A stretch of DNA of 54,203 bases, taken from positions 1 through 54,203 of IMG/VR virus record IMGVR_UViG_3300020428_000014; one strand, 5' to 3'. Position 1 is the first letter of the stretch. The number at the start of each line of letters is the position of its first letter. The notes beneath the pieces were generated by a model, which was given only the letters and a program-made list of their open reading frames with translations, was not told where the DNA came from and did no database searches. The position numbers were made by a program, and so were the translations under genes. This DNA is from a virus. Below are positions 3,712-54,030 of this stretch, piece after piece.

Positions 3712-4704
3712 TTATCCTGCGATGTCAAACCTCCATTCTTTCGCTTTGCGCCGGAGTTTCTTTAACGCGCCATGGTGAATCTGTCTAATTCCCTCTGTAC
3801 TCAATTTCTTACCAGTATCAAATGCCGCGATTTGTGAAAATGTACGAGCCCTTTGTCCGTTTAAGCCAAAATACGACGCCAAGACACGCTTCTCAATGTC
3901 TTTTAATTTGGTATGCTGAATTAAAGTTTCAAGCCCATTCTCCGGTATCGAGTCCCATATGGTCTCTTCGCTGGCTCGTCTTGAGTCTTGGCATATGAGA
4001 ATATCGGCCATAGATACAGCAGCTTTCCCTTCCCTGGCGTTTTTGAAAGTTGAGTCGAGCGGGAATACTTGTCGACAATAAGCCGTCTCCAAATCTTCCA
4101 AACGCGCACGACTGATGCCTGTCTCTTCAAATATCTCTTCGTGTGTCGGCTCCCTATGTAGCCGGCAATTGTAATCTTTGGTCATTTTTTTAACTTGAAG
4201 GTATTGCTGCCTCGCACCAGAGGGAATCCGAATAGTTTCTAAGACCCCGTAGCCATAGCGCTGGATACCTTGTCTGATCCACCATGTTGCATATGTTGAG
4301 AACTTATAGCCCAATGTGTAGTCGTATCTATCGCAGGCCTTAAGTAAGCCTTCACAGCCGCATTGAATTAAATCCATAATATCGGTCCCTTTTCGATGAG
4401 CAGCGTTGGCCAGGCTTACTACTAAACGCAGATTGCAATTTGCTAATTTGCTGCGTGCTCTTTTGCCTAGCCTCACCTGCTGTGGGGTTGCAGTTTCAGC
4501 TTGCCCCTCCTTCACCTGACGACCGAGAATCAACTCCTGCTCTGCAGTGAGTAAAGAGTAGCGCCCAAGTTTATTTAAGAAGCGAGCATAAGTCTCAGCG
4601 TTCGATGCATTAACAACGCTCCCATATCTGCCACGTCGGTTTTGTGCAGTCATTAAATCGCGACCCCTAAGGGCTTTTCCCATTCGGCTAGTCGTTCTAT
4701 CCAT
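3712..4704 (-). CDS. Sigma-70 family RNA polymerase sigma factor (sigma A)
   Basis: 330 residues; directs host RNA polymerase core to particular promoters. Visible parts in order: region 1.2 (YARFLNKLGRYSLLTAEQELILGRQV, about residues 38-64), region 2 (NLRLVVSLANAAHRKG... DLIQCGCEGLLKACDRYD... FSTYATWWIRQGI, about 92-149), a region 3-like helical part (PTHEEIFEETGISRARLEDL) and region 4 (DIEKRVLASYFGL... TEGIRQIHHGALKKLRRKA). This is the group 1/2 architecture common in cyanobacteria, not an ECF factor. The ATG at 4704 overlaps the preceding gene by 8 bases. It is the last gene of the primase/nuclease/RusA operon and a strong terminator follows. It probably acts on middle or late phage promoters. 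Confidence 0.93.
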   Translation of the reverse strand: MDRTTSRMGKALRGRDLMTAQNRRGRYGSVVNASNAETYARFLNKLGRYSLLTAEQELILGRQVKEGQAETATPQQVRLGKRARSKLANCNLRLVVSLANAAHRKGTDIMDLIQCGCEGLLKACDRYDYTLGYKFSTYATWWIRQGIQRYGYGVLETIRIPSGARQQYLQVKKMTKDYNCRLHREPTHEEIFEETGISRARLEDLETAYCRQVFPLDSTFKNAREGKAAVSMADILICQDSRRASEETIWDSIPENGLETLIQHTKLKDIEKRVLASYFGLNGQRARTFSQIAAFDTGKKLSTEGIRQIHHGALKKLRRKAKEWRFDIAG

Positions 4705-7461: not shown

Positions 7462-9591
7462 TTATGAAGCTAAAGACTGTCTTGTTTCGAGACTTTGCTG
7501 AGACAGCTTGTAGGCTCCACGTACGTTCGCTACTGGCTCAATCTCTGGCTCTTTTGCCCTCACCGCCAGCGTCAACGTATTGCTAAGGGTCTTCCTTTTG
7601 ATGTCACCTGTCGTGCATAAGCGCTCATATAGCTGCTTGCGTGTCAAGTATTTCAGCCCCTCCTCACACTGCGCTTGCATTAAGCAATAGACGATTTTGT
7701 CTAGGCAGTTGTTGATCCTCTCCTGCCCCATGCACAATCCCAATTGGCCGTCGATCATCTCGTACTCAAAACTCCGCAGCCCGCCGATCCGGTTCTTCAA
7801 TGTGATCCATCGCCTGCGGTCTGTTGGGCGGCCGTCCTCTTCAATCGACTGGATCTCGTGCACGCTTGACGGGATCTCGGCCCATGCCTTGGCCCCAGCC
7901 GCGGCCCCCCTCGCTACGCCGTCATGGTTGATCAGTACTAAGCAGCAATGCGGGGCCAGGACCTCCTTCATGAACGTGAGCATCGCCGTGACCCACTGGT
8001 TTGATGTGTAGTCAGCTGACTCCCCAGAGCAGATACTCTTGCAGCTATCGATCATTACTAGTCCGATGCCCTCCTCCTTAACGAACGACAGGAGCTGAAT
8101 ACACCCCTTCAGGTCAGCAACCCATTTCTCCTGCCCTTGGCCCTCATCCGCGGCCCATACGTGAAACATCTTCCTTCCGCCCTCAGATGTCTCTGGGATC
8201 CCTATTAGGCCCATGTCCTGGAGGCATGCCTTCAATGGTGCAGCTCCAGAATCAGACGCAATGAACAACGTCTTGCGCTTTGCGGAGGGCTGCGTGTGAT
8301 CGAGGAATCCAGTGCCCCTGATGGAGCTGAATGCTGCGCCGAGTGCTGCTGTGGTTTTACCGGAACCGGCTTTCCCGAAAAATAGGTTTAGATCATTGTC
8401 GACGAGAAAGCCTTCAACCAAGTAATTCAACCCCTGGATCCGGCTCAGATCGAGCGAGAGACGCTTGCTCTTCGCTTTGACGCCGATCTGCTGCTGCATG
8501 AAGCGGTTAAATAATTTGGCCTCGATCGTTGCATTGGTCTGCTTCCAGCGAGACATGATCTCAGCCCGCTTGTCCATCTGTTTGTCATCGTCGTTATTCA
8601 CTACAGCTTTCAGCATCTCGTCGATCGCTTCTGTATACCTCTGGTCTCGGATGACGCTTGTGGTTGTCCCATCCGCATTCTCTACCTTCACCTCAACCTG
8701 AGTTGGTCTAACTACCTCAATACTGTCCGGGCTCGTCCAGCCTCCCTTCTTCGCGTAGTGAAATAGGGTGCCCAGATGAATCTCACCCCCTTTAAATGAC
8801 TTCCACTTCCGTTGACAGGTCTTCTCGTTAAACTTTGAAGACTTTCTTGAATACTCGATCCATAGATCCAGCCACTCAGGATTAGCCCATTTCATTGCCA
8901 TCCCGACTTTTAGCCAGTCGTCATAGTCGTTCCATACTTCAATCGGGATGAACTCCAGTGCATCTATAGCCCTCTCCATATCACGAATCTCTGCCTTGCC
9001 CGGCATCTCCTCGCCATTATCTGTCGCCTCCTGGTAGGTCCTGAGCAGCGGGTGCAGCAACCAATCAGGTGCATCTGCAACCTCAACATCAATAGGGCTG
9101 CAACCCTCCACCCATCTGTACCCTTCTGTTTCCGGGTGGTGTCCAGCTACAACTGATTGGTGATTAGCCCAGCGAAGCTCTAAAACGCCGTCATAATGCT
9201 TGCGGTTTACGAGGCTGTCCCACCACTCGTCTGCCACTCGGAAGGCAACCTGCCTCCTCTCCTCTTTGCCACTAGTCCAAGAGATTGACTTGGGCAGTTC
9301 GCAGCTGTCACGCCCACATATCTGTAAGAACTTCTCCTCAGATCCAGGTCCATCAAAATCAACAGCTAATACACCGCCGGAGGCAGGCCCGGTCAATAGA
9401 CCTACAGCCCAAACATATTGACTGGGTAGATCCTTGATCTGGTCAATGTCATAACCCCCGGAACTTTGCCATTTGGCTACATTGTCCCCGGTATCAGCAT
9501 TTATCGGCTTTTTGTTTCTGCCAACTGGCACAAATCGCCAGTCAGAATCTGCAGCTTCAAGAGCACCCCAAATGGTTTCATCAAGTGGCAT
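7462..9591 (-). CDS. Primase-polymerase with C-terminal RecA-like helicase
   Basis: 709 residues. The N-terminal part is a bifunctional primase-polymerase (Prim-Pol) domain: FVPVGRNKKPI, then the catalytic LAVDFDGPG at about 75-83, then RQVAFRV and a SVVAGHHP segment with the conserved His. A middle PriCT-like helical region (ALEFIPIEVWNDYDDWLKVGMAMKWA... YSRKSSKFNEKTCQRKWKSF) follows. The C-terminal half is an AAA_25/RepA-type hexameric helicase with Walker A FFGKAGSGKTTAA at about 405 and Walker B GIGLVMIDSCKS. Such fused proteins prime and unwind at phage and plasmid origins. No DNA polymerase gene is visible, so elongation probably uses host Pol III. The operator at 9729 lies 138 bases upstream of the start. 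Confidence 0.92.
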   Translation of the reverse strand: MPLDETIWGALEAADSDWRFVPVGRNKKPINADTGDNVAKWQSSGGYDIDQIKDLPSQYVWAVGLLTGPASGGVLAVDFDGPGSEEKFLQICGRDSCELPKSISWTSGKEERRQVAFRVADEWWDSLVNRKHYDGVLELRWANHQSVVAGHHPETEGYRWVEGCSPIDVEVADAPDWLLHPLLRTYQEATDNGEEMPGKAEIRDMERAIDALEFIPIEVWNDYDDWLKVGMAMKWANPEWLDLWIEYSRKSSKFNEKTCQRKWKSFKGGEIHLGTLFHYAKKGGWTSPDSIEVVRPTQVEVKVENADGTTTSVIRDQRYTEAIDEMLKAVVNNDDDKQMDKRAEIMSRWKQTNATIEAKLFNRFMQQQIGVKAKSKRLSLDLSRIQGLNYLVEGFLVDNDLNLFFGKAGSGKTTAALGAAFSSIRGTGFLDHTQPSAKRKTLFIASDSGAAPLKACLQDMGLIGIPETSEGGRKMFHVWAADEGQGQEKWVADLKGCIQLLSFVKEEGIGLVMIDSCKSICSGESADYTSNQWVTAMLTFMKEVLAPHCCLVLINHDGVARGAAAGAKAWAEIPSSVHEIQSIEEDGRPTDRRRWITLKNRIGGLRSFEYEMIDGQLGLCMGQERINNCLDKIVYCLMQAQCEEGLKYLTRKQLYERLCTTGDIKRKTLSNTLTLAVRAKEPEIEPVANVRGAYKLSQQSLETRQSLAS

Positions 9592-14513: not shown

Positions 14514-14745
14514 TGTGTTTTCATATGACACATGGACTGTTCGTATCCATTCAAGGGAAAGCCTTTATCTTGTTCGATTCACCAACAAAGTAAATGGTGA
14601 ATTCCTCCTTGATGAATACGTCACTTGGTGTCCACTCAAGAAAATATGGGGGCCGCTCATGGGGCGGCCTTTCCCTTTCTCTGTATCTACCGATCTCTTA
14701 AACGAAGTTGAGTATGAATTGTGTTCTCGCTCAAGCCTGCCTTAG
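14506..14745 (+). CDS. Small hypothetical protein, 79 aa
   Basis: ATG at 14506 overlaps the upstream stop by 8 bases; the 3' end overlaps dnaN by 32 bases. The sequence (TWTVRIHSRESLYLVRFTNKVNGEFLLDEYVTW) looks like a small beta protein. A terminator-like hairpin lies inside its 3' half, so the last 25 residues may not be functionally constrained. No homologue recognised. Confidence 0.5.
   Translation: MCDVFSYDTWTVRIHSRESLYLVRFTNKVNGEFLLDEYVTWCPLKKIWGPLMGRPFPFSVSTDLLNEVEYELCSRSSLP
14651..14680 (+). terminator. Terminator-like hairpin before dnaN
   Basis: GGCCGC (14651-14656) pairs with GCGGCC (14664-14669) around a seven-base loop and is followed by TTTCCCTTTCT. The stem is short and the U-tract interrupted, so it would be an attenuator or partial terminator 34 bases before the clamp start. 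Confidence 0.4.
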
Positions 14746-15862
14746 CAAAGCGCTAAAGATTGCAAGCAAGGCTGTCACCAACAAACCAAGTCACCCAATT
14801 CTGGCCTGTGTCCAACTAAGCGCTGGCTCTGATGAGGATAACCCAGGCTCCTTTTCTATTGAGGCCAGCGATTTATCTACTAGCATCCACCGAAATATCG
14901 AAGCAGAGGTTAAAGACGTAGGGAGGCTATGCGTACCTTTCCGCCCACTCCATGACCTCATCTCTCGTCTTGATAGTGGGCAATCCTTGATGCTTGGCTC
15001 GCAAGGTTCTGATCTTTGCGTAACTACTCAGACGGGAGGCACTTACAAGATCGCTGGCTACCCTGGTGCCGATTGGATCAGCATGCCAGTTAAAGAAGAT
15101 GCTCTGCAGATCCAAGCGAATGTAGTCAAAGCGTGTCATACGGTATCAAAGGCAATCGCGAAGGATCGTCCAGACATCAACGGAATCAACATTAGGGTCA
15201 TTGACGGTAGATTAACATTCGCCGCGACAGATGGTCATAGGCTACATACATATAGTCACTCCATTGAGCATTCCGACCCGATCCCCGATGGAGCAGTAAA
15301 TGTAACAGTGCCAGAAGCGGCACTAGAAATAGCCGAATCCAGTAAGGGTGAAATCACCTTTACAAGCGGAGCCAAGGTCGTGGAGTTTAGAGATGGAAAG
15401 GACTGGGTATCGGCGAGGATCTACGAGAAGCCCTACCCCGATTATCCACAATTAGTTCCATCGGACTACAGAATTAGTGTCACTGTTGATCGGGTTAAGC
15501 TCCTCAAGCTCGTCGAAACAGTAGGGACTGTGGCTGCCGACGCCGAAAACATCATGCATCTAGGTAAAAGCACAGAGCGAAAAAACAACTTAGTCTTAAA
15601 CGCAATGCACACAATGGGCTTCGCTAAGGATTTTATCGATGCTGAATTTGAATACAATTACGATCCTGTAGCGGATCCAACTAGTGACGACTTTGATTGT
15701 TACTTAAACAGTCGCTTCTTTGCTGAAGCCCTGCGATCATTAGAAGGCGATCAGGTCTATATCAATTGGCTTGGTAGAGTCCAGCCCCTTGTCCTTAAGT
15801 CAGACGACAGCGAGCAACTTTGCTTAGTAATGCCCATACAGGGCAGGGCGAAAGATGAGTGA
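14714..15862 (+). CDS. dnaN: Beta sliding clamp (DNA polymerase III beta subunit)
   Basis: 382 residues from ATG 14714 (a TTG two codons earlier is possible). The protein is a ring-forming processivity clamp of the bacterial type, not a PCNA/gp45 type: it has full beta-clamp length and three-domain periodicity, begins [35 protein letters not shown], which closely follows cyanobacterial DnaN, carries [12 protein letters not shown], the conserved clamp-pocket segment, and ends LVMPIQGR. Residues of the hydrophobic peptide-binding pocket (TDGHRL and VMP near the C-terminus in E. coli numbering 172-177 and 361-363) are kept. The window encodes no DNA polymerase, so it serves host Pol III or another partner. 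Sigma B starts within its last 8 bases. Confidence 0.93.
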
Positions 15863-16745
15863 CGCTACTGGAGAGTACCTTGCTCGCATTGGCAAGATCA
15901 GCATGCTGGTGCCAAGTGAAGAGCTTGAACTTGGACGTATTGTCCAGGCCAATATTCATCTGGAAAATAGGAGCAGAGCTCAAGAGCGACAGCTTCAAAA
16001 GGCAAAAGATCGGATGGTCGAGAGTAATCTCCGCCTAGTAGTTTCCATAGCAAAAAAGTTCGCTAAGTATGTACCCCCATCGGAGTTGCTTGACCTCATT
16101 CAAGCTGGCAACACTGGCTTGATCAGGGCTGTTGAAAAGTTTAATCCAAGTCTTGGTTATCGTTTCAGCACTTATTCCTACTGGTGGATACAGCAAGCTA
16201 TCACATTTTATTTAAACACCTATAAGCACCCAATACGCTTGCCAACTTCTCAGCATGAGCGCCTTCGCAAGCTAGAAAAATACTATTCGATGTACGAACA
16301 AGGTCGAGTTGACGACCACTTTGATGACATTCTTTCCGATCTTAAGCTTACAAAAGATGAAGCAGCGAGGCTACTTCGATTTAAGACCTCCTTGAGGAGT
16401 CTTGATGCTTTAGCTGTTGAAGATGGCACTCCTTTAGTTGAGCTTATTGCAGCACGAGAGGAGCCAGAAGAAGATGATCAGGTCACACGGCTTAAGGAAA
16501 CCTATTCCAGCCTTGCACCAGAGCAAAGAGAAGTGATCGATTTGTATTACATCAATCGCCTTTCCATAAAGGAAGTGGCCAACATGCTGGGCAAATCTTG
16601 TGAAGTGATTAACCGGATAAAAGCAAGCGCTGATTTCAAGATCAGCCTTATCGTCAACGGAATCGTTCCAGCTACTGAATACATCGTGCAAAACGATATT
16701 CAAGGTATCGATAACACTTCCTATGAACAAATCAAGCTCTTCTAA
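15855..16745 (+). CDS. Sigma-70 factor with C-terminal clamp-binding motif (sigma B)
   Basis: 296 residues. Regions in order: 1.2 ([24 protein letters not shown], about 7-30), 2 ([62 protein letters not shown], about 54-115), 3 ([17 protein letters not shown]), and 4 ([37 protein letters not shown], about 222-258). About 30 further residues follow, ending [13 protein letters not shown] (292-296) fits the beta-clamp-binding consensus QL[SD]LF. The ATG lies in the last codons of dnaN (8-base overlap), implying coupled synthesis. It differs clearly from sigma A. I infer that it is the late-promoter sigma and is tethered to the phage clamp. Confidence 0.9.
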
Positions 16746-17226: not shown

Positions 17227-17263
17227 TCAATTTAACTAAACTTAAGCACCATGTTTGTTAGCG

Positions 17264-17779
17264 ATGATTCTTTGCGATACGGAAATCTCTGAGATATGTA
17301 GAGCTGGTGCGATAACACCATTTCTGCCTGAGTTGGTCAACCCTGCTTCGCTTGATGTGAGGCTAGGTCATGAGTTGATGATCGAGAGTGCTGAGTCCGA
17401 TGAATACAAGCGATATCCCCTTGCTGGCCATACAGAAGCCGACCCTTACGAACTTGTCCCGGGTCAGTTTGTTCTAGCCCCTACGATCGAAGTCTTTCAG
17501 CTGCCTAACAACGTGGCTTGTGAGTTTCGGCTAAAAAGCAGCAGAGCTAGAGAAGGGCTTGACAATGCCCTTGCAATGTGGATTGACCCTGGATTCTCGG
17601 GGTCTGTACTCACAATGGAATTACGGAATAACCGTCAGTTACGGACCATTAAAGTCTGGCCTGGTATGCGAATTGGGCAGCTTGTGTTTCACCGAATGAG
17701 CAAACTCCCTTCAATCGCTTACAACGTTATCGGACGCTATAACAACGACCTTAGAGTCACACAAAGTAAAGGTCATTAA
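17264..17779 (+). CDS. dcd: dCTP deaminase (Dcd/DUT family)
   Basis: 171 residues from ATG 17264. It deaminates dCTP to dUTP, supplying dUMP for ThyX. Family features: ILCDTEISEICRAGAITPF at the N-terminus, VNPASLDVRLGHEL, YELVPGQFVLAPTIEVFQLP, the active-site strand FRLKSSRAREGL, and the trimer/nucleotide segment WIDPGFSGSVLTMELRN. The C-terminal SKLPSIAYNVIGRYNNDLRVTQSKGH is consistent with Dcd. Length is slightly below the E. coli enzyme, as common in phages. A bifunctional deaminase/dUTPase cannot be excluded. It lies 37 bases after the clamp/sigma B group. Confidence 0.88.
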   Translation: MILCDTEISEICRAGAITPFLPELVNPASLDVRLGHELMIESAESDEYKRYPLAGHTEADPYELVPGQFVLAPTIEVFQLPNNVACEFRLKSSRAREGLDNALAMWIDPGFSGSVLTMELRNNRQLRTIKVWPGMRIGQLVFHRMSKLPSIAYNVIGRYNNDLRVTQSKGH

Positions 17780-18266: not shown

Positions 18267-18439
18267 TGATTGACGATAACTTAAGACCAACACTTGTTGT
18301 CGTTATTGACGAGGATGGAACGCCAGTGTTTGAGTGCTCAGGGGCGGGGCTCAGAGTGCGGCACCCACAGGAATGGCAGGCCATAGCTATACTCCGTCAG
18401 CTTTATGTCTCCAAAGGCCTCCGGTGGCCTTGCCCATAG
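18263..18439 (+). CDS. Small hypothetical protein, 58 aa
   Basis: Begins with ATGATG overlapping the previous stop. The chain MMIDDNLRPTLVVVIDEDGTPVFECSG has strand-turn-strand character, then a helix (HPQEWQAIAILRQLYV). Its 3' 102 bases overlap the convergent HNH gene, so one of the two ends may be wrong, though such overlaps occur at operon junctions in compact phages. Confidence 0.45.
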   Translation: MMIDDNLRPTLVVVIDEDGTPVFECSGAGLRVRHPQEWQAIAILRQLYVSKGLRWPCP

Positions 18440-18757
18440 CTCTTCTAGGGAGACGTTCAACATATATCGCATTAGCTTTTTCGCACGCTCAACGTCCCAG
18501 CAAGGGTGTTGTGTCCAGAACTCCCACAGTTCTCGGTGACCCTTCTGCCTGTTATGAAGCGAGCAACAAGGCGCAAGGTTGTAATCGATGGTGAGGCCCC
18601 CATTCTTTTTTGCTACTAGGTGGTCTAATGTTATGTGTTCAAACTTCTCTCCGCATATGTAACACCTGCTGTCCCAGGTCTCGATAATCTTCTTTCGGAA
18701 GCGCTGCTTTGTAATTTTGCGTGTAACTAGTTCGCTGCCCTCAATGTGATGCTTCAC
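18338..18757 (-). CDS. HNH endonuclease
   Basis: 139 residues if the GTG at 18757 is used; the frame is open to a TTG at 18829 but that overlaps the upstream gene by 89 bases. The HNH/McrA-type zinc fold is visible: CYICGEKF, then the catalytic ITLDHLVAKKNGG (DH pair), then NLAPCCSLHNRQKGH with the second cysteine/His/Asn part. A His-Me finger nuclease at the end of the late operon may be a free-standing homing-type gene or a packaging helper; TerS has its own separate HNH neighbour at 53425. Confidence 0.82.
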   Translation of the reverse strand: MKHHIEGSELVTRKITKQRFRKKIIETWDSRCYICGEKFEHITLDHLVAKKNGGLTIDYNLAPCCSLHNRQKGHRELWEFWTQHPCWDVERAKKLMRYMLNVSLEELWARPPEAFGDIKLTEYSYGLPFLWVPHSEPRP

Positions 18758-18938
18758 TGGCTTCTGGGAGAAAGTATGGAGTAATGGAGTAATCAAGGAG
18801 ATATTCAGATGAGCGAGCCATCTCTTCAACCCTTGAAGCCATGTTTTGTGCCACCTGATCTATATCGCCAGGACCTTTTTCGTGTACATCTCCGTCAACG
18901 ATGACGATGGCATGCATATGCACCACATATCGACTCAC
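18741..18938 (-). CDS. Small protein after the endolysin, 65 aa
   Basis: The GTG at 18938 is chosen because AAGGAG lies 6 bases upstream; it begins (M)SRYVVHMHAIVIVDGDVHEKG. A strand-rich N-terminus is followed by an acidic helix (GDIDQVAQNMASRVEEMARSSEYLL). It overlaps neither the endolysin (stop at 18941) nor seriously the HNH gene. Not recognisably a spanin: no signal peptide or membrane segment is visible. Confidence 0.6.
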   Translation of the reverse strand: MSRYVVHMHAIVIVDGDVHEKGPGDIDQVAQNMASRVEEMARSSEYLLDYSITPYFLPEASEASH

Positions 18939-20607: not shown

Positions 20608-20865
20608 CTATGCAGGCTGTGTTTCGTTAAATCCGACTGGTCCTTTGCTCGCCTCCAGTTCTCTGTAAAATTCTGGATTGGACTCTTCGTCTGGATATTC
20701 GGCCTCATTGATTTTGATCGTTATATTCTCAACTTCTGACAATTCACGATCGTCATTGAGCAGAAAATATCTGCGGCCTAGGGGAACAGTGTATTCCGGG
20801 TTAGCAATACCCTTTCCCCACCAGAGGTCTTCTCCGGTCAGCTCGTAGCGATAGAGTGTTTTCAT
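20608..20865 (-). CDS. Hypothetical protein, 85 aa
   Basis: Starts with ATG overlapping the RCC1 protein stop (TAATG). Tyr/Trp- and acidic-rich: MKTLYRYELTGEDLWWGKG, then TVPLGRRYFLLNDDRELSEVENITIKINEAEYPDEESNPEFY. Probably a small beta protein made together with the tail protein; a fibre assembly helper or exposed tail component is possible. Confidence 0.65.
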   Translation of the reverse strand: MKTLYRYELTGEDLWWGKGIANPEYTVPLGRRYFLLNDDRELSEVENITIKINEAEYPDEESNPEFYRELEASKGPVGFNETQPA

Positions 20866-23621
20866 TAGCCGAAGTTGACGTATCTCGTCATAGGGTACAT
20901 ATAAACATAATTATTGTAATTGTTGTCGATGTAAGACATACTGCCAGTTTCGCCTGTCCAGTAGCTCATCCCTGATGTTCCAACGTAGACGTAATTAATC
21001 CCGCCGTGTACATCTCCACTGTTCGCCCATTGCCAATCCATGCAGGGCTCTGGCAAAGACATGATGGGCGTGAACAAATCAGAAACTCCGATGCCGCCGC
21101 CAAATTTTTGGATTGCAACATCACCATCTGGCACAATGCCTGGGCCCATCCCACCGGGGTCGTAGCCCGTGTAATACACCGCCCCCTCACCAGTTACCAG
21201 TACGACCGTGCCTTGCGTGCCATTCATGGACACATTGCCACTGATTGACCTGACGTTGAAATGGAATCTTGCCTTGGTTGTATTCTGACCTGCAGAGAGA
21301 GGTGGGTCTATGTTTGCGCCTGTAAGTTCCTCATACGTAACGTCCGATAATGCCTGGTGGCTAGTGATCCCATAGTCTCTGAACTGGATCTCAGCGGGAG
21401 TGTAATCATTGAGTCCGCTAGCGTCAGGGATTGTTGTCGTTTGACGGCCTAGCAATCCATTTGTGTTGTTCCCCCAGCTAAATACCTTACTAGGTCCATT
21501 CAATGCCTGGGTAATAACGCCGCCATCGGCCTCTGGAGTAGCATTAGACCACACTTTTGTGACTGCAAAAACGGATGAGTTCCGCCCACCTGTTACAAAC
21601 AGCTGTATGACTTTTCGAGGGATACTACCGTTAGACTCATAGTCGTTAATTCCCGTTCCGCCAGTAGTTGGGCTTGAGCCATTTTGGTATGTATTAGTAA
21701 CGAGAGTCGGATAAAGGAGTTTACTGCTCGCCGTTGCGCTATGAACACCTGTGAATTTGCCGTATTCACGGTTGTCCCCTGACGAATAGACAAAACCATC
21801 TCCAGTCAAGTAATAAGTATGCCCATGGAGAATACCGTGAGTATGCTCGTGGCTTGCATTACCTGAGCCTATGACATGTACGATAGGCTTGTTATAAAGT
21901 GGATTGTTTGAGTCGGTCGTGAGGCAGACTGGAGTAGCCTTATCAACCTGGGTTCCATCCCCTAGCTCACCACTTGCATTGTATCCCCACACCCAAAGCC
22001 TGCCTTGATCGTCAATCGCAAATGCTGATGCTTGAGCGCCGCCGTACGAATGTACATAGGTGATTTTGACGTTTAGCGCACTTGGGAAAGAAATCTTTAG
22101 CGGCTTATAGCTACTCGTTGTGGACCCATTGCCTAGTTGCCCGTTAGCATTGTAGCCCCATGTCCACAGGTCACCGTCTACAGTAAGGGCATAATATGAT
22201 CTACGCCCATAGTTATTAGTTGAAGCATACCAGGTCGTGCTAGTGGTATGCCCATCACTTATCCGTGAATTGGTGATGAACGTAAATCTGGGGTATGAGG
22301 CAGGTGATAATGCGATACTGACACTTGGGTTGTTTGGGTCTAGTTCCCAAAGCTTTACAGGCCTAGCCGCACGGGTCTCTACAGCCCCCTGGGAGCCATA
22401 CCCTGATCCGCCATTATCATCATTGCCTGCGTAGTATAAACGCCCGCTGTTGGTTATAAAGTGCCAATCAAACCCGTTATATGCAACTTCTACAATCTTT
22501 TCATCAGTGAAGGCGAAGCCAGCTGACCACGGCTCAGGATATGTATTTAAATACTGCTGGCCCTCATATAGTAAATCCCGTTGAAGTGCAGCAGTAGGCT
22601 CTTCGGAGTAGTTAAGGTCATTTAGGGTATCGGTGTTTATTGAATCAAAGGGGTTAGTGTGAGCGACCCCTGAAAGATACCTATTGACATTGCGTTCACG
22701 CCGGATAACAGCGCGGACATTTTGGGATGCAGTCGTATTCTGAACTGAGCCATGGGGGAACCATGCAGCTGCTTGTCCATATCCAGCATGGTCTTCGCCA
22801 CTCATAAATACGTCGCCAGAACGAGTCAAGATTGGAGTCGGTCCGCTCCACATACACGCGGAAATGTATCTGTTCCCAACACCGATGCTTCCTTTGACCT
22901 CACCACTTAATACCTCTGACCACCATGATTGATGGGTCTGGTATAAAGTTTGCCCACCGGGAGTTCCTGACGGGCATTCACTAAACGGTCCATAGCGGTA
23001 CGGATTAATCGTCCTGTAATTCATGGCGCTAGCGCCGATGCCATACCAAATCCGATAGTCAAGCTTGTTGATGTCTTGGCTTAGCTTTGCTGGGGTGATT
23101 GCCCCATCTTGAATGTGGACGGTCTGAATGGAATTATCAGCTACTGATGCCGTTGCAGTTTCACCCCAGACTGTGCCGTCATAGATTTCAAGTCGACTGA
23201 GCTGGTTATTAAAACGCAACTGCCCTGTCGCCAAGTCTGCCCCTGTAGGCCGTTGCGCTGTGGTCCCGGTAGGCACAGTCAGCGCCCCAGTCCCTACGAC
23301 TTTGAAGTAGTCGCCATTATGCGTATACACACCTCGCGACTTAGGGCTGTTGTCGTACTCTTCAATTGAGCGTACTTTTTGCCAGGCAGCCCCGTCGTAA
23401 ATACGCAAGACAGCTGGTGTAGCACTGTTGTCAGCCCAGAACTGATTAATGGCCGGCGTTGTTGGTGCTGTTCCACCGACAGTAGCTCCCCAAACAGGAG
23501 AAGTAGGGCCTGTATTGTTTTTCGCTATTGCCTCAAAGGCATCATTGATTTGTGTCCTAACAACAAAACCTGAACCGTTGTCAACATGCAATTGATGCTG
23601 TTTGTCAGTGTTGCTGCTCAT
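20865..23621 (-). CDS. Tail protein with RCC1 beta-propeller
   Basis: 918 residues from ATG 23621, five bases after the J stop (TTG 23630 is alternative). Residues 1-150 look like a fibre base (FVVRTQINDAFEAIAKNNTGPTSPVWGATVGGTAPTTPAINQFWADN, YDGAAWQKVRS, RLEIYDGTVWG). From about 200 to the end come repeated units with the RCC1 signature, for example LTVDGDLWTWGYNANGQLGNGST, IDDQGRLWVWGYNASGELGDGT and VFSWGNNTNGLLGRQ. An RCC1 propeller at the tail tip, directly downstream of J, suggests receptor binding or attachment to an envelope structure. Confidence 0.82.
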   Translation of the reverse strand: MSSNTDKQHQLHVDNGSGFVVRTQINDAFEAIAKNNTGPTSPVWGATVGGTAPTTPAINQFWADNSATPAVLRIYDGAAWQKVRSIEEYDNSPKSRGVYTHNGDYFKVVGTGALTVPTGTTAQRPTGADLATGQLRFNNQLSRLEIYDGTVWGETATASVADNSIQTVHIQDGAITPAKLSQDINKLDYRIWYGIGASAMNYRTINPYRYGPFSECPSGTPGGQTLYQTHQSWWSEVLSGEVKGSIGVGNRYISACMWSGPTPILTRSGDVFMSGEDHAGYGQAAAWFPHGSVQNTTASQNVRAVIRRERNVNRYLSGVAHTNPFDSINTDTLNDLNYSEEPTAALQRDLLYEGQQYLNTYPEPWSAGFAFTDEKIVEVAYNGFDWHFITNSGRLYYAGNDDNGGSGYGSQGAVETRAARPVKLWELDPNNPSVSIALSPASYPRFTFITNSRISDGHTTSTTWYASTNNYGRRSYYALTVDGDLWTWGYNANGQLGNGSTTSSYKPLKISFPSALNVKITYVHSYGGAQASAFAIDDQGRLWVWGYNASGELGDGTQVDKATPVCLTTDSNNPLYNKPIVHVIGSGNASHEHTHGILHGHTYYLTGDGFVYSSGDNREYGKFTGVHSATASSKLLYPTLVTNTYQNGSSPTTGGTGINDYESNGSIPRKVIQLFVTGGRNSSVFAVTKVWSNATPEADGGVITQALNGPSKVFSWGNNTNGLLGRQTTTIPDASGLNDYTPAEIQFRDYGITSHQALSDVTYEELTGANIDPPLSAGQNTTKARFHFNVRSISGNVSMNGTQGTVVLVTGEGAVYYTGYDPGGMGPGIVPDGDVAIQKFGGGIGVSDLFTPIMSLPEPCMDWQWANSGDVHGGINYVYVGTSGMSYWTGETGSMSYIDNNYNNYVYMYPMTRYVNFG

Positions 23622-23626
23622 GGCGC

Positions 23627-26600
23627 TCAAGCTTTGTTTTTCCCGTAACCCGATGCTACATATCTAATTTCTGCTGTGGCTGAAGAAGCGGTAACCATGA
23701 AGCGACCACGCTCAACACTTGTCAATGTCACGGTGCTTGAGTCAAGCAGAATTACTGTTGGTGGTATGTAGAATCCATAACTAAAGTCTAGCCATTGTGT
23801 CGCTCCAGCTGTTAATCCTGGAGTCTGAACTACTACTACACCTGTTTCCCTTCTCGCTAGTTTCAGCTTGATAGTGCATTCATTTACCGTTGTCCGACTG
23901 GACCCGACTCCATCCTTTCGGATTAGCTGAAGTAATGTTGGGTATCCCCGTTGTGCTAACTGACGGTCTATCCTCCCTTGAAGCGTATCGTAGGAATCGA
24001 TCTCCAGCCATAAGTAATATGTATGACCTGAAACAAGTGTTGTAATTCCACTTCTCTGTGCCCCTGTTATGCCTTGAAATCCTATATTCACAAGGGAGTC
24101 CAACTTATGTAAGCCTGTTTCAATCCTTGATTTTTGGGTATCCTTGCTATCGAAATACATCCAATTATCTATCGCCAACTCCGGGTCGATGTTGTCGACC
24201 TCGATAGCGCCATGCTGTCCTGTCGTTACCGTTTGCTCAAACGCGAAATCCCAGGTTCCTGCTGTTGGTTCAAATGTAAGGTCGCTAGTAAACAATCCGG
24301 TTTTTGGAGAGGCTCCCATGAGATCAATGTTCCCATTGGAATCCATTGTGCCGTTTGTATCAAATATTTTAGCCTGCCCTACAATCATCAGTCCTCCACT
24401 TGGCGCCTTAGAAGGATCAACCCCAAGCCTCCAGTACTTTCCACTCCATTTCCTAGCTAAAGGCGTGTCTACGACCTCCAGGGTTGGGTGGCCGGGAAAC
24501 AACTTCTTGGTTCCATTTGGTAAGTCGAATTCAGCAACAGTCAGCAGGCGCTCGTCCATCCTGGCGAGTGTCTCGATCGTCGCCACGGCTGGATTGGCAC
24601 TTACTCTTCCGCCGTCATCTTCAAAACATACTAAGTACGTTTGTGCATCAGCGCTTGCAGGAATTTGAATTGTAGTCGCCGCTCCATTAGCCGTTGCAAC
24701 CAATACTGATTCTTCCCAGACGTTTGCGGCTGACGTAGCCTTGTGGATACGTACATGACCGCCATTAATTACATCGAGATCAATACTTTCGTCCCAGCTT
24801 AGTTCGACTATTCTTATGGCTGTTGCGTCGCTATCTTCGGTTACCCTGTCAGTCACTACAACTGCTGCCGAAAGTTTCTCTACATCGAGCGGTGGTTCTG
24901 TTTTGCCGTAAGTCGTTATCGTAGCTGATGCATAGTTTGCCGACTGGAACAGCCCAGAACTAACAGCAAATACTCTTATCTCATATATCTCCCCTACCGC
25001 TATTTCTGTGATCTCACATGAAGGGCTCGCGACTTCAGTTAAGTCCCAATTGGCACCTTCCTGCCTATACATGACTCGATATCGCTGAGCTCCCTCCACT
25101 GCTTCCCAACTCGCGCAAATCTTCGTTTTAACTCGATTCTCATTACCTATGTAAAACTTCTCAACTAGTGTTAACCCACTTGGAGACTCAGGCTCCGGTG
25201 ACATCGTAAATACCACTCTCTCCTGTAGAGGTTCACTTGCTTCTATATGTGCGTATTTTGAAGAGTCATGGGCCATCGCTGTGATCCCATAGACGCCGTC
25301 ATCTTCCTCAATTACGGACAGCACACGCCATTTTGAACCCTCGGTAACTCCGCCTGCCTCCTCAAGTGCGTACGGGACTCCTACGACTGGCCATTCTTCA
25401 GATTCCAAATCTTGGATGTCAACGACTACCGTCGCCGCCCTATTTGCTTCTGCATGAGGGAATGTCATTGGTGGGCACATGACACCTCTTACAGGCCGAC
25501 TCCTTACCATCCCGCCTCTAGTTACGTAGGTAAACTTATCAAACGTGGCATCCTGCGGAATGTCCCCAGAAATAGAGACTAAAGCGCTCACAGGTAGAGA
25601 GTTCATAATTGTGCCCTGATCCTCCCCTCTTGCTATCATTAGCACTCGCCCGCTGCTGACTTGCCCTGTTTTGGTTTGATCGGCAATCGTAATTATTGAG
25701 CCAGGTCGCACGACAGTACCTGGCCCAATTGATGTTTTGAACTCACAGATTTCTGACTCTGCGGATTCCGTATAGAGTAACCACCTAGCCAGCCTCCTGG
25801 CTTGTGTACGAGATGTGCAGCAAAATGCCTTGATCTCTGTCTGGATGACTCCCCACTTTCTTACTCCGTCTTGGTCCTCTGCTACTACATAATCGACCTG
25901 ACGTAAATCCATATTGAAGTAACTAACGGTTACTACCGTATGGCGTGTCTTCTGACTGGCGTTTCTATAGAGAAATCCCTCTTGTAATACGTTGTCACTA
26001 TTGAATAGAAAGGTCGAGTCTCTCGGTCGATCCTGACTTATCTGAATGCTGCCAGTTGACCAGTAGGCCATGCAGCGGAATACTGATGACAGATCATTGA
26101 TGAGTTTGTAAGCAGAGTCTGCATTCCTGAGCACACCATTACAGGAGAACCTGGGTTCCGTCTCAGTGCTGCCATCGCCTTTGTTTATTAGCTCGCAACA
26201 GTATTTGCTGGCCTCAAAAAAGCTCCAGCGGTCTAACTGCGCCAACTGGATGTGATCGCCAAATCCGAATGTCCTGTTGGTAAGCAGCTCCAGCAATAGC
26301 ATGCTTGGGCATGTTGTCCATTGTGGAACTTGAAAAGTACCGTCCCAAATGAAGTTTTCTGGATAGATTATCCTGCCATTGTCCTGGTCAACAGTTGTGC
26401 CAGTGGGGATTGGTACTTTGATCCCACGGATTTTGAATGACCGATTCGGTACTGCCCCGAATTCACTTGCATCTACTCTTGTCGCTACTAAAGCTGAGTT
26501 TGGGTATCGCAGCCGCTGATTGACGATATGGGTGATAACAGTCCAAAAAAACTCATCCTGTGTATTCTCGTCTGTTGCGTCATCTGTTACCCTCTCGACC

Positions 26601-53424: not shown

Positions 53425-54030
53425 TCAACAGATCTGCAATTGGTTCCCCTGTATTGAACACAAACGCTTTATTCTTTTCCACCGCCTCTTATTAAAAAAG
53501 CTCTGCTCTCTATACCAATCCCATACGTTTCGATGTTGCTTTGAGCTATTGCATGCTTTGCAACTTGGGACAATATTACCCAATACATGTGGCCCCGCCT
53601 TGACTACAGGGTTTACATGATCAATAGTCAAGTGACTATCGGCTCCACAATATGCGCAGGCGTGCCCAAACGCCTTCCAGCGCTCTTCCAGCTCTGGCGG
53701 TGATGGCTTGTAGTGGTGATTCCCCTTTTGAGCACTCCGCCGCCTTTGGTTCTTCTGGCTGAGGGTGCCCACATGGAACTTTGGGTCGTTCTTTCGCGCC
53801 TCGTAATGCCGTCTGCTGTTCTCGTTTTTTCTTCGACGGTACTCGTCATACATCTCTGGATCGCGCTTCATCAGAATCATCTGATCGTCATAAGTCTGCC
53901 GTGCCCTTAAAAGTTCACATCGCACACACCTCCCTGTACTGACATACCTGAGGGATTGGTTCGCTTCGCCGAATTTATGCCCCTTGCTACATAGCTGGCC
54001 GAGGAAATAAGTCCTCTTGTCAAACTCCAC
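53425..54030 (-). CDS. HNH endonuclease beside terminase
   Basis: 201 residues from GTG 54030. The N-terminal part is a zinc-binding segment (LCSKGHKFGEANQSLRYVSTGRCVRCELLRAR) plus a long basic helix (EMYDEYRRRKNENSRRHYEARKND). The C-terminal HNH fold is complete: CAYCGADSHLTIDHVNPVVKAG... NIVPSCKACNSSKQHR. HNH genes at this site, next to the terminase of cos-type phages, assist cos cleavage and packaging (known for HK97-like and related phages). It is the first gene of the late leftward operon. Confidence 0.88.
   Translation of the reverse strand: MEFDKRTYFLGQLCSKGHKFGEANQSLRYVSTGRCVRCELLRARQTYDDQMILMKRDPEMYDEYRRRKNENSRRHYEARKNDPKFHVGTLSQKNQRRRSAQKGNHHYKPSPPELEERWKAFGHACAYCGADSHLTIDHVNPVVKAGPHVLGNIVPSCKACNSSKQHRNVWDWYREQSFFNKRRWKRIKRLCSIQGNQLQIC

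Follow-up and report, generated by a model that had tools for sequence, protein, structure and literature searches.

A phage sigma-70 factor with a putative clamp-binding tail, encoded next to a DnaN-type sliding clamp

Background

To our knowledge, late transcription that is coupled to replication through a clamp-tethered sigma factor is known in detail only in T4-type phages. The locus described here, in which the gene for a DnaN-type sliding clamp runs into that of a sigma-70 factor with a clamp-ligand-like C-terminus, raises the question of whether another phage could use a bacterial-type clamp and a full sigma-70 for the same purpose. It lies in the window, the whole stretch of DNA that was analysed, which is the 54,203-base IMG/VR virus record IMGVR_UViG_3300020428_000014, taken entire. 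An earlier note on this DNA read the gene pair as a replication-coupled switch for late transcription and knew of no previous account of a clamp-binding sigma that contains region 4. A literature search, mostly of open papers, likewise gave T4-type cases only and found no sigma-clamp coupling outside those phages. The features under discussion are given in Table 1.

Table 1. Positions of the clamp-sigma features in the window
Feature	Position	Strand	Basis
Sigma A, second phage sigma, no clamp motif	3712..4704	-	phrog_351 8.8e-49; ends EWRFDIAG
Terminator-like hairpin immediately upstream of clamp gene	14648..14672	+	11-pair stem, T-rich tail
DnaN-type sliding clamp, 382 aa	14714..15862	+	Pfam, phrog_947, AF2, Foldseek; ORF call (ATG 14714, stop 15862)
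TDGHRL, clamp residues 172-177, predicted peptide-pocket wall	15227..15244	+	invariant across 50 aligned phage clamps
VMPI, clamp residues 372-375, predicted other pocket wall	15827..15838	+	M373 and P374 invariant
Clamp/sigma B gene overlap, 8 bases	15855..15862	+	ORF calls
Sigma B, sigma-70 family, 296 aa	15855..16745	+	PF04542, PF04545, phrog_351 6.8e-54
Disordered sigma B tail, residues 271-296	16665..16742	+	AF2 pLDDT <50
C-terminal QIKLF, predicted clamp-binding motif	16728..16742	+	QL(S/D)LF consensus match; recurs in relatives

Results

The product of the upstream gene matched all three DNA_pol3_beta domains in Pfam (PF00712, PF02767 and PF02768), the third at 25.0 bits, slightly below the 27-bit cut-off, and it also matched phrog_947 (1.8e-45). 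Its AlphaFold2 (AF2) model has a mean pLDDT of 88.8, and the top Foldseek matches of that model are beta clamps from the PDB, peptide complexes among them, with a TM-score of about 0.84, an E-value of about 1e-29 and 17-21% identity. A short additional tail is modelled with low confidence. By domains and by fold the product is a DnaN-type clamp, and the ORF calls and family searches bear out the earlier description of such a clamp overlapping a sigma-70 gene by eight bases. The pocket segments TDGHRL and VMPI were also rightly named in it. Residues A171-L177, P242, P249, M373 and P374 are invariant across the 50 aligned phage clamps, and the window clamp keeps the conserved peptide-binding pocket (TDGHRL, P242 and the MP near the C-terminus). 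Compared with the E. coli pocket, two positions are changed, R246 to Q and M364 to I.

The terminator-like hairpin that precedes the clamp gene is a strong one, and clamp and sigma B may be transcribed from a promoter of their own, judging by a consensus scan. Replication and nucleotide genes elsewhere in the window include those for ThyX (416-1291), a Prim-Pol/AAA protein (7462-9591) and a dCTP deaminase (17255-17779). Neither the window nor any of the 33 other records searched yielded a PolA and, since the Prim-Pol/AAA protein is present, the window clamp probably works with the host polymerase.

Sigma B contains both region 2 (residues 54-119) and region 4 (residues 219-259) in Pfam and is a sigma-70 family member; the overlap of its gene with that of the clamp suggests coupled translation. 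The translation ends in YEQIKLF, as had been claimed for the last five residues, and the choice of frame does not account for this terminus, because the next ORF starts at the sigma stop (ATG at 16745). The AF2 model of sigma B (pLDDT 85.5) places the end of the last region 4 helix at residue 267, and from residue 271 onwards pLDDT is below 50, so that QIKLF lies at the extreme end of a stretch predicted to be disordered. The extension past region 4, put at about 30 residues in the earlier note, measures 29-37, counted from the last model helix (267) or from the Pfam end (259). The consensus of bacterial clamp ligands is QL(S/D)LF (PMC9690074), and E. coli examples are QLGLF in Pol II, QLNLF in UmuC and QLVLGL in Pol IV (PMC3716654). 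Position 2 of the window motif is Ile and position 3 is Lys. Sigma B therefore has a QLxLF-like peptide in a terminus predicted to be disordered, and its binding to a clamp is a prediction from sequence and model. It is the sole plausible gene of the window that ends in Q[LI]xLF.

The frequency of such tails was determined among sigma relatives collected in four scans of viral contigs, mainly by region-2 peptides such as FSTYAYW, so that the tails themselves did not drive retrieval. Window sigma B served as the seed of the first scan, which was run before the pattern was noticed; with cultured phages added and the window excluded, 5 of 13 families had QLxL, where shuffling predicts 0.85. The full set comprised 212 phage sigmas in 37 families (50% single linkage), the window's own two sigmas being left out. 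Near the C-terminus QLxL was present in 11 of the 37 families (3.2 expected) and Q[LI]xLF in three (0.10 expected), counts that are not fully blind because some of the later seed families were picked for clamp-like tails. False QLxL matches do exist, some of them falling in the region 4 helix (L016, L472). In these phage loci, of 3272 further ORF tails only 5 had Q[LI]xLF within the last 30 residues, and the motif was absent from all 80 sigmas of cyanobacterial genomes.

Sigmas with Q[LI]xLF end in GEQLRLF (L305), TEQLSLFAA (L253, L254 and L427) or TQLALFGPLE (L252). Other clamp-like tails are GQLVLPLT (L063), DQLGLPGIGDP (L284), PVQLSLPSLN (L415) and a variant, QPTLPLML (L262), and those of two cultured phages are MLQLPLIP in KBS-S-2A and LQLVLVEAP in S-LBS1. 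Overall identity to the L305 sigma is about 40% for the sigmas of L252, L262 and L284; the position of the motif is kept and the linkers have diverged. Because unrelated relatives carry QLRLF, QLSLF, QLALF or QLVLPL at this place, the most fitting reading of QIKLF is that of a bacterial clamp-binding motif carried on a disordered tail. Tandem overlapping sigma genes were also seen, for example in L253 and L254 (2914-3972 and 3941-4927), where QLSLFAA ends the second sigma only, and in L490-L493.

The S-LBS1-type family has the motif in 20 of its 26 members. Across 16 distinct tails of the S-LBS1 group Q, L and L have zero entropy, an invariance that stems in part from how the tails were chosen since they were aligned on the motif, and the linker and position 3 are variable. 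A putative clamp epitope on a divergent linker, as in gp55, thus appears in the aligned sequences of relatives, none of them a close sigma B homologue. Tails of the L005 family (for instance L290, L306 and L315) have two QLVLV-like repeats around an Arg-rich linker; there the double repeat may form a beta-hairpin or amount to two clamp motifs, and the second QLVLV repeat of S-LBS1-type tails could likewise make a beta-hairpin.

The terminase of the window is closest to those of Synechococcus phages S-CBS3 and S-CBS1 (42%), which makes a Synechococcus-like host likely. Searches of IMG/VR with exact peptides gave no close homologue of sigma B or of the clamp, and a DNA pattern for the sigma B peptide YWWIQQAI returned distant tandem sigmas only. 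Placement of sigma B in a motif-rich clade was weak in one tree (SH-aLRT 86) and not recovered in another, and AU tests excluded neither of the placements tried; its motif may have been inherited or separately gained. Elsewhere in the window, the tail gene region encodes a 921-aa protein (20865-23630, minus strand) with RCC1-like WGxNxxGQLG repeats, recognised by eye, and there are HNH-type endonuclease genes at 18338-18829 and 53425-54030 (minus strand), the latter identified by eye only.

The earlier note proposed to check conservation of the motif and synteny with dnaN. The motif does recur, as described above; a clamp directly adjoining a sigma does not, in the loci examined. A record-wide search found a phage clamp together with a sigma relative in eight records (L179, L223, L070, L482, L308, L309, L324 and L052), in none of which a sigma has the motif. 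The motif is present in 32 of 79 scorable records that lack a clamp and, conversely, no clamp gene was found in the 32 motif-bearing records searched; records of either kind may be fragments. The difference between 0/8 and 32/79 has a Fisher p of 0.024 when related records are counted as independent. The idea of a phage clamp and the motif as a travelling pair is thereby rejected, the two being mutually exclusive in relatives, and the window is the only case found with both. In L482 (904-4918) the clamp, dCTP deaminase (dcd), sigma and HNH genes stand almost in the order of the window, the sigma lying beyond dcd from the clamp and being without the motif. The earlier note held that a sigma homologue beside a clamp gene and without QxxLF would count against its reading, and L482 is in part such a case. 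A 383-aa protein near the S-CBS1/KBS sigma was considered as a clamp and rejected, as it is phosphatase-type by eye and those genomes have no clamp family match.

Since clamp-bearing records occur without the motif and motif-bearing records without a clamp, the motif is independent of a phage clamp, and motif-bearing sigmas in clamp-less records could dock only on the clamp of the host. Of the reading as a replication-coupled clamp and sigma, then, QIKLF as a clamp-binding motif is supported, and its pairing with a phage clamp, in the form given, is not. In general form the sigma is likely tethered to whichever bacterial-type clamp sits on the DNA, usually that of the host; in the window the partner is probably the phage's own clamp, translated just upstream.

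Discussion

Taking the genes, the modelled folds, the disordered tail, the motif and its recurrence and constraint in relatives together, sigma B is most likely a gp55-like clamp-tethered phage sigma that evolved on the bacterial clamp system. In the mechanism that we infer, down to binding, activation, the genes that come under control, any late role and the choice of clamp, sigma B would guide the host's RNA polymerase to promoters of the phage, and its flexible tail of about 30 residues would dock the terminal QIKLF in the peptide pocket of a DNA-loaded DnaN-type clamp. The polymerase complex would thus be held to the clamp on replicating DNA, much as gp55 and gp33 are with gp45 in T4. Because it is replication that loads clamps, the arrangement would favour transcription of phage DNA that is being copied. 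The host clamp would serve as partner in relatives that lack a clamp gene. We put the probability that sigma B docks its tail in a DnaN-type clamp in this way, favouring transcription of replicating phage DNA, at roughly 0.6.

An alternative explanation is that the clamp and sigma B are ordinary neighbours, sharing an operon for the sake of timing, and that QIKLF is a chance ending which makes no clamp contact. The eight records with a sigma, a clamp and no motif agree with this, as does L482 with its similar gene set, and in the loci examined elsewhere the clamp adjoins no sigma. We nevertheless regard it as unlikely, because Q[LI]xLF near a terminus is rare in ORF tails, because here it sits at the very tip of a disordered tail in a gene beside a clamp, and because its recurrence in unrelated phage sigmas far exceeds chance. 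It is also rather improbable that the tail motif is real and serves a different partner, or forms a beta-strand such as a hairpin on RNA polymerase or an anti-sigma factor, its likeness to clamp ligands being coincidental. S-LBS1-type tails, with two VQLVLV-like repeats round an Arg-rich loop, could indeed be beta-hairpins, and some QLxL matches, those in the region 4 helix, are false. Other families, however, have a single QLRLF, QLALF, QLGLP or QLSLP in a Pro-rich context, and the tail of sigma B carries just one motif and is modelled at low pLDDT.

The tail could instead make sigma B a competitor that fills clamp pockets, displaces host polymerase or repair proteins and slows host replication with no activation of transcription. 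Pocket competition by a small protein has a precedent in SocB, which uses this site to block replication (PMC9690074), and a phage clamp is missing from most motif-bearing relatives. Such a role is very improbable, however, for the carriers of the motif are complete sigma factors, proteins that work in association with RNA polymerase, and the phage itself seems to need the host polymerase. The broader proposition is evenly balanced in our judgement: that a wide and so far unrecognised class of cyanophage sigma-70 factors with bacterial clamp-binding C-termini couples transcription to replication via a DnaN-type clamp, mostly that of the host and here that of the phage itself, so that the T4 principle evolved twice.

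If a full sigma-70 does act through a QLxLF tail on a DnaN-type clamp, the principle would be older or more easily evolved than thought, replication-coupled transcription would work with a host clamp, and small cyanophages would gain a simple means of timing their genes. The reading predicts clamp-dependent promoters in the cultured phages S-LBS1 and KBS-S-2A.

Comparison with known systems

The window clamp shares fold and family, at about 20-30% identity, with the DnaN-type clamps of other phages (phrog_947; Synechococcus phage S-H1, Nodularia and Rhizobium phages), none of which directly adjoins a sigma gene in the loci examined, unlike that of the window. The cyanosiphoviruses S-LBS1, KBS-S-2A, S-CBS1 and S-CBS3 have homologous sigma-70 factors, with clamp-like tails in the first two; the sigmas of S-CBS1 and S-CBS3, unlike sigma B, are without the motif. 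A clamp family search found no clamp gene in any of these four genomes, and the S-LBS1 paper does not mention one. With the E. coli ligands Pol II, UmuC and Pol IV, sigma B shares a flexible tail in which Q, L and L/F have the same spacing, at the C-terminus or close to it, and the pocket residues of the clamp are the same. Those ligands are polymerase or repair proteins, whereas here the ligand would be a sigma factor.

Several features separate the window from T4. The gp45 clamp is a trimer with an LDFL-type ligand, and the window clamp is DnaN-type with a predicted QLxLF-type ligand; T4 has its own clamp, whereas most motif-bearing relatives of sigma B have none. T4 gp55 has the region 2 fold only and needs gp33 at the flap, whereas sigma B has region 4, and the T4-like late promoter word TATAAATA has no exact match in the window. 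Sigma B is thus not a gp55 by membership, and the resemblance lies in its predicted function. At the C-terminus of T4 gp55 the clamp epitope is conserved, and the flexible linker that bears it is divergent (PMC2988020; PMC7892883). The T4 gp55/gp33/gp45 system and the window have in common a sigma-family factor, a C-terminal clamp peptide, predicted for sigma B, on a variable flexible linker, and a phage-encoded clamp.
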